The notes under the pieces: model-generated | Told to the model about the DNA's origin: nothing | The model's input: only the letters and a program-made list of their open reading frames with translations | Databases searched by the model: none | IMG/VR virus record: IMGVR_UViG_3300010160_000172 | Span: 1 to 28,873 of that record | Source of the DNA: a virus | Strand: one strand, 5' to 3' | Length of the DNA: 28,873 nt | Shown: piece by piece, positions 2,179 to 10,159 of the stretch | Layout of the letters: each line of letters opens with the position of its first letter | Numbering within the stretch: position 1 is the first letter of the stretch | Made by a program: the position numbers and the translations under genes

Positions 2179-3120
2179 CTATGATGATTGTGCAGTAACA
2201 GTTGTAGTGTTACCACTAGCCGTTTCAGAATTTGAATCTATTACCGCTTGTGCTGCAGCTTGTGCGGCTGTCAAAGAAGCTGATGCATCCACTAAAGATG
2301 CCTGTGCTGATAATGCTTGTTTCAAAGAATCTGTAGCCTCAGACAAACATTGTGCAAATATTTTTTGTAATTCAGCAGGTAGACTGTTTATGTAGGCTAT
2401 CAGTTTTCGTAGATAAGCAATGTAAGCCTGATAGGCTTTAATCTCATCAGTAATGGCTTTTAATTCTTTTTGTATTAATTTAATCTTTGCTTTTAAAGCC
2501 TTGACTGTTGCTTTGGCTTGTTCTACCAACGGATTGGTACCGTAACCAGCAAATAATGCCTCGGTCGCCAATCTGAGTTGTTTGACAAGTCCCATAACTT
2601 TAGACTTTAATACTGCCACATCTTTGTCTAGTCCGGCACATATGTCACAATTGTGTATTCTATTATTAGCTGCAGCACCTTGTGATGTTTTAGAAACCAC
2701 ACTTCTAGCAATTGGAGGTACAGTAGGTTGACCAACAGTTTCTAATACTATACCTGCAGGTGGTAATGGTGCAGCCTTTATTTGTTCTGGTGTACGTGGG
2801 TCTTGAAAACCAGCATCACCGCCTGTAGACGCCTTTAATCCAGGTATAACACCCGTCATAACTGGAGTTTGTGCTGAATCACCATCAAGGAAATAACCTG
2901 TTACAAACTCACCTTCTTTTGGTGGAGAAAAAGATTGTGAAGCATTTGTTGGTAATATTGTCTGAGCCCACGGTAAATCTTCTGTGGGTAAAAGTTTCTT
3001 ATTCTCTGTGTGGTGACCAAATATACGCACACGACACCGACCCATCTTTAAAGGATCCATTCTGTCTTCTACGACACCAACCCACCAGTTAAACCCGTCT
3101 TTACCTATGAAATTATGCAT
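2179..3120 (-). CDS. 5: Baseplate hub gp5 OB-fold protein lacking the lysozyme domain
   Basis: The first ~95 residues match the gp5 OB-fold: FNWWVGVVEDRMDPLKMGRC, RVRIFGHHTENK, then LPWAQTILPTNA, GEFVTGYFLDGDSAQTPVMTGVIPG. In T4 this domain is followed by a lysozyme and then the needle. Here residues ~170-290 are instead a Lys/Ala/Leu-rich coiled coil (AKATVKALKAKIKLIQKELK, AELQKIFAQCLSEATDSLKQ) and an Ala/Ser-rich tail; no lysozyme catalytic motif is present. A CDICAG pair of cysteines lies near residue 158. The protein likely trimerises on the gp27-like hub and carries the needle encoded next door. The start overlaps the end of the hub gene by 8 nt. Confidence 0.85.
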   Translation of the reverse strand: MHNFIGKDGFNWWVGVVEDRMDPLKMGRCRVRIFGHHTENKKLLPTEDLPWAQTILPTNASQSFSPPKEGEFVTGYFLDGDSAQTPVMTGVIPGLKASTGGDAGFQDPRTPEQIKAAPLPPAGIVLETVGQPTVPPIARSVVSKTSQGAAANNRIHNCDICAGLDKDVAVLKSKVMGLVKQLRLATEALFAGYGTNPLVEQAKATVKALKAKIKLIQKELKAITDEIKAYQAYIAYLRKLIAYINSLPAELQKIFAQCLSEATDSLKQALSAQASLVDASASLTAAQAAAQAVIDSNSETASGNTTTVTAQSS

Positions 3121-7132: not shown

Positions 7133-7780
7133 ATGGCAGGTAACATTAATGACTTCAAGGCAAGTTTTACCAAAGACGTAGCACGAACCAACAGGTTTGA
7201 TGTAGAAATTCCTGTGCCGTTGACTCTTATTCCTTATGTATCTTCAGCCAGAAGTTTGAAATATCGTTGCGAGACTGCTCAATTTCCAGGTAGAACATTT
7301 GCTACAACAGAACAAAAGACATATGGACCAATTGAGAAATTTCCATATCTAAACACATATAATGATTTAGACCTGACTTTTATCGTTGATGATGATATGA
7401 GTCAAAAGGTGTTCTTTGATGCATGGATGAGTTATATCAATCCTCTATACAATAATAATTATAGATATAAAGGTGATTATGCCACAACTCTTGTGGTTAA
7501 TCAATATAATGTTTCTGTTGAAAAGACATATTCAATTAATCTAGTTGAGGCTTTTCCTATTTCCATAAACCAGATGGATTTAAATTGGGGTGATGATAGT
7601 TATCATAAACTTTCAGTAACATTTGCTTACACATACTGGCAAAACAATTCTCTACAAGCACTCGGAATGGAACTGGTCGATGCCGGCATCAACGCTGTCA
7701 CTTCGGCTTTGGGTGGTTTGGATGGTGGGTCATCAGGTATTGTTGACCAAACAAAGAATGGTTTGCTTAGTGGATTTTAA
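7133..7780 (+). CDS. Tail tube family protein (gp19-like; possibly tube initiator)
   Basis: This 215-residue protein is of the T4 gp19 tube family. It has a helical start (INDFKASFTKDVARTNRFDV), then SLKYRCETAQFPGRTFATTE, YGPIEKFPYLNTYNDLDLTF, FFDAWMSYINPLYNNNYRY, and late strands FPISINQMDLNWGDDSYHKL and SVTFAYTYWQ. This is the two-sheet tube fold that stacks as hexamers. It is longer than T4 gp19 (163 residues) owing to a Gly/Ala/Ser tail. Because sheath (gp18) and portal (gp20) genes are not adjacent, it might be a baseplate-proximal tube initiator rather than the major tube; the sequence alone does not settle this. Confidence 0.82.
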   Translation: MAGNINDFKASFTKDVARTNRFDVEIPVPLTLIPYVSSARSLKYRCETAQFPGRTFATTEQKTYGPIEKFPYLNTYNDLDLTFIVDDDMSQKVFFDAWMSYINPLYNNNYRYKGDYATTLVVNQYNVSVEKTYSINLVEAFPISINQMDLNWGDDSYHKLSVTFAYTYWQNNSLQALGMELVDAGINAVTSALGGLDGGSSGIVDQTKNGLLSGF

Positions 7781-7799: not shown

Positions 7800-8525
7800 A
7801 TGGCTTTACCAAAACTTGATGTGCCGACATATGAAATTGTGTTGCCTATCTCAAAAAAGAAAATTAAATTTAGACCTTTTCTTGTCAAAGAACAAAGAAA
7901 CTTATTAATGGCAATTGAATCGACAGATTCTTCTACTGTACACCAATGTATCTTTGATATACTAAACAACTGTACAATAACAGAAGATGTGGATGTCAAC
8001 AAACTGCCTGTTACAGATATTGAATATTACTTTATCAATCTCAGAGCCAAATCAGTTGGTGAGATTGTAGAGTCACGTTACCGTTGCAACAACTTTGTTG
8101 AAGACAAAGAGTGTGGTAATATTATGGAAAAGAATATTGACCTAACCAAGATTGAAGTGAAGATGCCTGAGGGAATCAATCCTGAAATTCAACTTAGTAA
8201 TAAAATTTCAATCAAACTTAAATATCCAGAATTTGGAATTGTTAAAGATTCATTGAATATGGAAGATATTAATGACCTAACTTTCAATATGATTTCACAA
8301 TCTATTGAATACATTTATGATGGTGACCAATTCTACTATGCACATGAGGCACAACCTGGAGAAATGTTGGCATTTGTAGAAGATATGAACCAAGAACAAT
8401 TTGAAAAGGTAGAAAAGTTCTTCCAGAACCTACCACGACTAAAAGATAAACTTGAATTAACTTGTGGTAAGTGTGGTTTTCACCATACGATTGAGGTGGA
8501 AGGTTTAGAAAATTTTTTCGTCTAA
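7800..8525 (+). CDS. 26: Baseplate hub/assembly protein gp26-like
   Basis: This 241-residue protein of the T4 gp26 baseplate family begins LPKLDVPTYEIVLPISKKKI and continues KFRPFLVKEQRNLLMAIES, then ITDIEYYF-type strand and NLRAKSVGEIVESRYRC. Two cysteine pairs (RYRC...KECG near residues 97-106 and CGKCGF near 222-226) could form a zinc ribbon. A strong Shine-Dalgarno sequence (AAGGAG) lies before the ATG at 7800. The zero-frame product ends at 8525, but codons 239-240 lie on a T_TTT_TTC slippery heptamer and the -1 frame continues into a conserved-looking extension (separate entry). In T4, gp26 and gp51 act in hub assembly. Confidence 0.83.
   Translation: MALPKLDVPTYEIVLPISKKKIKFRPFLVKEQRNLLMAIESTDSSTVHQCIFDILNNCTITEDVDVNKLPVTDIEYYFINLRAKSVGEIVESRYRCNNFVEDKECGNIMEKNIDLTKIEVKMPEGINPEIQLSNKISIKLKYPEFGIVKDSLNMEDINDLTFNMISQSIEYIYDGDQFYYAHEAQPGEMLAFVEDMNQEQFEKVEKFFQNLPRLKDKLELTCGKCGFHHTIEVEGLENFFV
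8513..8519 (+). promoter_or_regulatory. Putative -1 ribosomal frameshift site T_TTT_TTC
   Basis: The heptamer is in the correct phase for the zero frame (AAT TTT TTC) and fits the X_XXY_YYZ rule. A -1 slip here leads to CGT CTA ATA TTT..., an open frame running to 8707. The -1 frame upstream is closed by a TGA at 8492-8494, and no ATG occurs in it before 8576. A perfect 8-bp hairpin follows at 8556-8577. Confidence 0.6.
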
Positions 8526-8707
8526 TATTTCGGCATGACAATTTGAAAAATTATTATAAGACTAATTTCAGTCTTATGCAGCATCATAAGTACAGCTTGA
8601 CAGAACTTGAGAACATGATGCCTTGGGAAAGAGATATTTACATATCTTTGTTGATTTCGTATATTGAAGAAGAAAATCAGAAGATAAAAGAAAGACAAAG
8701 AAAATAG
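8519..8707 (+). CDS. -1 frameshift extension of gp26 (tail-assembly-chaperone-like)
   Basis: This is the -1 frame continuation of gp26. Sixty-two residues follow the slip, starting RLIFRHDNLKNYYKTNFSLM and ending in the charged helix YIEEENQKIKERQRK. The middle, HHKYSLTELENMMPWERDIY, has the highly ordered look of a conserved domain. If it were an independent gene, its only ATG (8576) would have no Shine-Dalgarno sequence, would sit inside a hairpin, and would lose the well-formed FRHDNLKNYYKTNF segment. The fusion would be about 302 residues. Many long-tailed phages make a short and a frameshifted long tail chaperone from such pairs; applying that here is inference. Confidence 0.6.
   Translation, partial: RLIFRHDNLKNYYKTNFSLMQHHKYSLTELENMMPWERDIYISLLISYIEEENQKIKERQRK
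8556..8577 (+). other. Perfect hairpin downstream of the slippery site
   Basis: ATAAGACT (8556-8563) pairs perfectly with AGTCTTAT (8570-8577) around the 6-nt loop AATTTC. It begins 36 nt after the slippery heptamer, further than the usual 5-9 nt spacer, so it may help pausing or instead hide the AUG at 8576. It has no following T-tract and is not a terminator. Confidence 0.45.
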
Positions 8708-8710
8708 TAA

Positions 8711-10159
8711 ATGGAAGAATCCAAAGATAAAGTAGAGAAGAAGATATCACCTTTAACAACAGAGAGTGTTAAGGGTGTTTCTCGCATTGGTACATCATCT
8801 GTTGGTGGTGGAGATATGTCCACAATGGATGAGGCTCTTGGTCAAATCTTTGTCATACTAAAGAGAATAGACGCCTTTGATAAACTACAAAACAAAAAAC
8901 AATTAGTAGATTTACAGATATCACAACTGGAAGAGACTGATAGAAATCAAAAACTGATTAAGGCTTTACGTGGTAAACCTAGAAGACCCAAACGTAAACC
9001 ACCAGAAGAAGAAAAACAAAAACAGCAGATAAAAGAAGAAAAGTCTAAGCCACAACCTTCTGAGCCAAGTAAAACGACTGGTCAAGCACCAGCTCCCACC
9101 ACACAACCACCAAAAACGACTGGTCAAGCACCAACAACAACTCAAGCACCACCAAAAACAACTGGACAACCAGCAACAACAACTCAAGCACCACCAAAAA
9201 CAACTGGACAACCAGCAACACAACAGCAAGCTCCATCAACAACAACTCAAGCACCAGCAAAAACGACTGGTCAAGCACCAGCAACAACCACACAACCAGC
9301 AACAACGACAACACCAGTTAAACCTCCACCTCAATTACCGACTGCTACAAAGATTCCGCCTGTAGTTCTATCTGGTACAAAAGGTTTAGTTTTGAGTGCA
9401 TTAGTTGCTGCTGGATATTCAAAGTCAGCGCAAGCCAATATGATGGCCAACGTTGAAAAAGAATCAAATTTTAAGCCACGAAGTGAAGAAGTTCCAAAAC
9501 CAGAAAAAATATTTTCAATGTTTGGTCCCCCTGGAGTAAAAGGTGGCCAACCAGAGAATGGAAAAAATACAGTTCGGTTTAAAACACTACAAGATGCTCA
9601 AGATTTAGTAGCTGCTGGACCAGAAGCATACTTCAATAAAGTTTATGATGGCAGAAAAGATTTAGGAAATACGACTCCCGGAGATGGTTACAAATATCGT
9701 GGCAGAGGATTTATACAAATTACAGGTAGAGATATGTATAATCGAGTCGGTAAACTAATTGGTGAAGATTTAATTGGTAACCCTGATTTAGCAAATACAC
9801 CTGAAGTAGCTGCAAAAATTATTCCAGCTTTCTTTCAATTAAAATTAAAAGAAAAAAAACTTAATGTTGAAGCTTATGATAATATAGATACAGTAAACAA
9901 AGTTGTTGGTAGTGCTGATGAGAAATCTAGAGAACAAAGAAAATCTTTAGCCGCTATATATGCAAATGAATTAAATACTGGTAATCAAATTGACCAAGCT
10001 TCAACTACAAACAGAAACTTAAAAGCTGATGCTAATACACAACAACCAGCACCAATCAATGTAAATAATACATACGAGAATACGAAAACATCTCCTTCAT
10101 CTGGTGGTGGCGGAGGATCCGATGATACGAATCCTTATGAGAGAAAGAAAAATCAATAA
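8711..10159 (+). CDS. Tail hub protein with Pro/Thr linker and GH19-type lysozyme domain
   Basis: This 482-residue protein has three parts. Residues 1-115 are charged and helical (MSTMDEALGQIFVILKRIDA, then KLQNKKQLVDLQISQLEE). Residues ~116-212 are a low-complexity linker with five KTTGQ copies (KTTGQAP/KTTGQPA TTTQAPP). Residues ~220-425 resemble a GH19 chitinase/lysozyme: AALVAAGY-type helix, ANMMANVEKESNFKPRSEE with the candidate catalytic Glu249/Glu251, then GYKYRGRGFIQITGRDMYN and GNPDLANTPEVAAKI. It probably cuts peptidoglycan during DNA entry, taking over from the lysozyme domain absent from gp5. It sits where T4 has gp28/gp29. The C-terminus is Gly/Ser-rich. Confidence 0.78.
   Translation: MEESKDKVEKKISPLTTESVKGVSRIGTSSVGGGDMSTMDEALGQIFVILKRIDAFDKLQNKKQLVDLQISQLEETDRNQKLIKALRGKPRRPKRKPPEEEKQKQQIKEEKSKPQPSEPSKTTGQAPAPTTQPPKTTGQAPTTTQAPPKTTGQPATTTQAPPKTTGQPATQQQAPSTTTQAPAKTTGQAPATTTQPATTTTPVKPPPQLPTATKIPPVVLSGTKGLVLSALVAAGYSKSAQANMMANVEKESNFKPRSEEVPKPEKIFSMFGPPGVKGGQPENGKNTVRFKTLQDAQDLVAAGPEAYFNKVYDGRKDLGNTTPGDGYKYRGRGFIQITGRDMYNRVGKLIGEDLIGNPDLANTPEVAAKIIPAFFQLKLKEKKLNVEAYDNIDTVNKVVGSADEKSREQRKSLAAIYANELNTGNQIDQASTTNRNLKADANTQQPAPINVNNTYENTKTSPSSGGGGGSDDTNPYERKKNQ
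9068..9320 (+). repeat. In-gene tandem repeats coding the Pro/Thr linker
   Basis: The sequence encodes five KTTGQ units. The two central units are an exact 42-bp tandem duplication (starting at 9140 and 9182), coding 14-residue blocks of the PPKTTGQPATTTQA type. Flanking units are diverged in length and third positions. Such arrays expand and contract by slippage, changing the tether length of the lysozyme domain. Confidence 0.8.

Follow-up and report, generated by a model that had tools for sequence, protein, structure and literature searches.

A predicted -1 frameshift joining gp26 to the C-terminal domain of gp51 in an uncultured T4-like phage

In a T4-like myovirus (IMG/VR virus record IMGVR_UViG_3300010160_000172, positions 1 to 28,873; this whole stretch of 28,873 nucleotides is called the window below), a -1 programmed frameshift near the end of gene 26 very probably makes a short (28 kDa) and a long (36 kDa) tail-assembly chaperone (TAC). 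A preliminary description of this DNA had proposed a -1 frameshift joining gp26 to a conserved domain. That proposal is now strongly supported at the level of sequence, because the slip site is invariant, the product of the -1 frame is homologous to gp51, and T4 has a natural long protein encoded in one frame.

The gp26 locus and conservation of its slip site

The gp26 reading frame lies on the plus strand at 7800..8525, starts with an ATG preceded by the Shine-Dalgarno-like AAGGAG and encodes 241 residues, the 0-frame product and putative short chaperone (TAC-N). Its 3' end reads AAT TTT TTC GTC (codons 238-241) followed by TAA, and the heptamer T_TTT_TTC (8513..8519, plus strand; codons 239-240) stands in the phase relative to gp26 that a -1 slip requires. 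A TGA at 8492-8494 closes the -1 frame upstream of the slip; the frame is open from 8495 to 8704 and ends with a TAG at 8705-8707; counted from 8519, the extension (8519..8707, plus strand) comprises 62 codons. The predicted masses are 28.0 kDa for the short product and 35.8 kDa for the long product of 302 residues. The first ATG of the -1 frame (8576) is 19 codons into the domain, the sole earlier start is a TTG at 8543, and no Shine-Dalgarno sequence is evident before either. A coordinate check thus bore out what had been described of the locus: a heptamer in correct phase at codons 239-240, a -1 frame closed at 8492 and open for 62 residues past the slip, and neither ATG nor Shine-Dalgarno sequence serving the first part of the domain. 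The second frame overlaps the 3' end of gp26 in the -1 register and lacks its own start, the layout by which a TAC locus is recognized.

The gp26 product matched PF12322 well above the curated cut-off (E=5.1e-59) and also phrog_150 (E=1.4e-61), while the -1 product matched positions 56-118 of the 121 in phrog_634, the gp51 family annotated as 'baseplate hub assembly catalyst' (E=1e-29). Because of these matches the predicted long protein is gp26 plus the C-terminal domain of gp51. The preliminary description had seen a conserved-looking domain in the -1 frame; the domain is real, as judged by homology to the gp51 family, and it is not anonymous, being by sequence the C-terminal domain of T4 gp51.

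We classified 228 loci, the window included, which came from six scans of viral contigs anchored on proteins and, in addition, from 20 stretches taken from the records of named phages. In 191 of them an in-phase TTTTTTC or TTTTTTT lies close to the gp26 stop codon and the -1 frame encodes gp51; 24 loci (22 from Ackermannviridae, plus Vibrio phages SUMAE and D495) carried the -1 domain without the classic heptamer, 11 (the T4 group) encoded the long protein in one frame, and two (L170 and L220) had frame breaks elsewhere in the gene. The L220 break is a mid-gene frame change in a T4-like gp51 gene (1500-2260), either an error or real. In the first scan T_TTT_TTC was in phase in all 80 loci, at identities down to 53%. 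The in-phase site was also present in Kyanoviridae, Pelagibacter and Methylophilales phages, in Vibrio phages EniLVp02 and D485, in Aeromonas phage 65, in Variovorax phage V45v66 and, as TTTTTTT, in Melnitz. All 39 slip-site homologues less than 70% identical to one another in amino acid sequence had TTTTTTY, a retention beyond chance; in these representatives the 0-frame stop followed the slip by 0-24 nt and the -1 frame opened at or shortly before it.

Alignment of relatives for conservation of the slip site and the -1 frame, a check set beforehand, found the slip kept. Codon 239 was TTT in 39/39 representatives and in 116/116 sequences at the 90% level; no other codon of the fusion showed so constant a synonymous choice, the median share of the top codon being 0.54-0.64. 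Codon 240 was TTC in 108/116, whereas elsewhere in gp26 TTC is the rarer Phe codon (128/442). An in-phase AAATTTT at 8510, which overlaps the slip, was also considered as the site. TTTTTTC was taken instead because just 29 of the 191 slip-site loci contain AAATTTT.

The T4 counterpart, the chaperone-like fold and earlier reports

In T4 the same two domain arrangements occur as separate genes. T4 gp26 (208 residues) matches PF12322 over nearly its whole length and so consists of the N domain only; T4 gp51 (249 residues) is encoded in one frame and combines a PF12322 match at residues 1-201 with a phrog_634 match at 147-246. Whether carried by a T4-type gp51 or by a -1 frame, the C domain contains an invariant MxPxER motif. 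T4 genes 26 and 51, known for baseplate hub assembly, are divergently placed and involve no frameshift, in contrast to the single gene with a slip site in the window. Because the T4 domains correspond and share the motif with the -1 frames, T4 and the frameshifting phages would, by sequence comparison, obtain the same pair of short and long proteins in different ways. In the T4 lineage genes 26 (short) and 51 (long) would yield these products, and the locus supports reading them as short and long chaperone. Frameshifting has reportedly been seen in several T4-like groups, with separate genes in the T4 group.

The fold of gp26 was modeled with AlphaFold2 (mean pLDDT 86, compared with 90 for a T4-type gp51). 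The solved structures closest to the model were YqbN (3klu, Z 7.4) and the HK97 tail-assembly chaperone (2ob9, Z 7.0), which matched over 84-86 residues within gp26 residues 1-88; the next matches had Z 4.7 and 2.7. By Foldseek, 2ob9 ranked second and third (probability 0.75-0.77, E 0.63). The model thus gives moderate but specific support to a TAC fold of the HK97 gp13 type in the gp26 N domain. This domain resembles both HK97 gp13 and YqbN, but gp26 has about 150 further residues past the matching region. PDB sequence searches with gp26 and T4 gp51 found no relative, an absence that proves nothing, and a VIA search with the model of the long T4-type gp51 returned weak matches only, with no TAC among these. 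The third-best fold match to the gp26 model (residues 6-90, Z 4.7) was PDB 5ir0, the ORF19 protein of a PICI-like element from Vibrio cholerae; this protein may serve a phage satellite as a chaperone-like factor. Directly upstream of gp26 is a tail-tube-like gene (7133-7780; phrog_45, E=8e-42), a position that fits membership of gp26 in the chaperone family.

The sequence shows how the locus is laid out, that it is conserved, what it is homologous to and that T4 has a two-gene counterpart; that ribosomes slip here, how often they do so and that the products act as chaperones are what we infer. Most ribosomes would stop at the gp26 TAA and yield the short form. At U_UUU_UUC both Phe-tRNAs would sometimes slip one base back, and the ribosome would then pass the stop and add the 62-residue gp51 domain. 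On the model of lambda gpG/gpGT, we would expect the short form to coat the tape-measure or hub proteins and the extra domain to bring in tail-tube subunits, with the long form made in the smaller amount. In a TAC system the chaperones are expected to bind the tape measure and to be absent from the virion. For the lambda gpG/gpGT and HK97 gp13 chaperones the reference is Xu, Hendrix & Duda 2004, as cited in PMC12859696.

The preliminary description knew of no standard account for this type of gp26. One exists: citing passages in PMC10885494 and PMC12846349 credit Vladimirov, Gautam & Davidson 2022 with a short and a long chaperone made by frameshift in T4-like phages. Where the Adele phage paper (PMC12846349) cites that study, it refers to poly-T slip signals carried by the TAC-N genes of these phages; according to such citations, some T4-like phages instead have one short and one fused long gene and no frameshift. 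The arrangement is therefore already reported for T4-like phages. The window locus is like theirs in its short and long chaperone and its poly-T slip in a TAC-N gene, differs in nothing essential and adds another, uncultured member. Our literature search, in which Vladimirov et al. 2022 was known via citing papers, found no paper naming genes 26 and 51 as a chaperone pair. The present analysis identifies the domain in the -1 frame with the C domain of gp51 and gives an indication of non-canonical slip in Ackermannviridae. It also argues that gp26 and 'gp51', which many records of cyanophages, pelagiphages and other phages list separately, ought to be annotated together as a single frameshifted chaperone gene.

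Alternative explanations and RNA structure

In many records gp51 is annotated as a gene in its own right, and the -1 frame might be translated independently into a small protein, either from a start of its own or by termination-reinitiation when ribosomes reach the gp26 stop. An ATG lies at or just after that stop in P-SSM2, S-PM2, JA15, EniLVp02 and D485 and could allow this. Yet only 7 of the 39 representatives have an ATG within the first 10 codons past the slip, 16 have no ATG, GTG or TTG there, and in the window the first ATG comes late and without a Shine-Dalgarno sequence. On these starts, a separate gene was rejected as the main mechanism; it would also leave the invariant slip codons and the in-frame long gp51 of T4 unexplained, and we consider it unlikely. 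Relatives encoding the second part separately had been named as evidence that would count against a frameshift: many records are indeed annotated so, but the starts vary between phages and are often lacking while the slip is constant. Polymerases are known to slip on homopolymers, and transcriptional rather than ribosomal slippage on the run of six T could join the frames. A run of six T is short for polymerases to slip on efficiently, however, a C breaks the run in 31 of the 39 representatives though more T would favor the polymerase, and the exact X_XXY_YYZ phase is always kept, which makes this explanation more improbable still. Nothing beyond the frame break itself speaks for a sequencing error or a decayed gene, a virtually negligible prospect given the same arrangement in 190 other loci, among them independently sequenced isolate genomes; sequencing error was rejected on that ground.

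Several points nevertheless weigh against a frameshifted chaperone. Besides the ATG codons near the gp26 stop in the five phages above, the match to the TAC fold is at Z about 7 with a Foldseek E of 0.63, the conservation counts take no account of shared ancestry, and a tape-measure gene was not identified next to or downstream of the locus. Nor was a conserved stimulatory RNA structure found when the window and relatives were folded. The preliminary description had pointed to a perfect hairpin after the slip, and this is present (8555..8578, plus strand) with a 9-bp stem starting about 35 nt downstream. As a signal it did not hold up: of the relatives folded, L002 (the closest, 96% identical) has it too, but in the 42 others it is absent or weaker. 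A 58-nt stretch folds better than shuffled sequences (z -2.88), whereas no such advantage is seen for the 88 nt that run from the slip (z -0.20). Given its distance, its lack of conservation and the 88-nt result, the hairpin was rejected as a frameshift stimulator and is probably incidental. Conservation of residues in the -1 product can account for the conserved bases downstream of the slip.

A non-canonical site in Ackermannviridae and neighboring genes

The least familiar point of the analysis is the site N_(A/C)TT_TTC, which stands in place of T_TTT_TTC in loci L092-L095, L194-L211, L096 and L099; the -1 frame of these loci encodes the gp51 C domain as elsewhere. Ackermannviridae keep GAR-ATT-TTC-ATY-TAA at the end of gp26, and Vibrio phages SUMAE and D495 keep CTT-TTC there. 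Their -1 products match phrog_634 weakly (Menlow, 2.6e-4; D495, 0.035). In several of these phages, among them Marshall and JA15, the -1 frame becomes open no earlier than 10 nt ahead of the stop, and any shift there is pinned to the last three codons. We give an even chance that these phages make the same C domain by a -1 shift at N_(A/C)TT_TTC, mostly by single-tRNA slippage. Only the Phe codon (T_TTC) can re-pair well at this site, and the slip would rest mainly on Phe-tRNA. In JA15 an ATG overlaps the stop, and re-initiation could take the place of a slip. If the shift occurs, one protein pair would have three solutions: the classic heptamer, a non-canonical slip in a sister lineage and the two genes of T4.

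Two further features of the window were noted. The gene directly after the locus (8711-10159) encodes a GH19/endolysin-like domain and long Pro/Thr/Gln-rich repeats. On the minus strand, a gp5-like baseplate hub/tail lysozyme is seemingly split over two open reading frames: an N-terminal match (phrog_430, 13-123) falls in 2179-3120, and a match further along the same profile (332-488) in 1426-2169.
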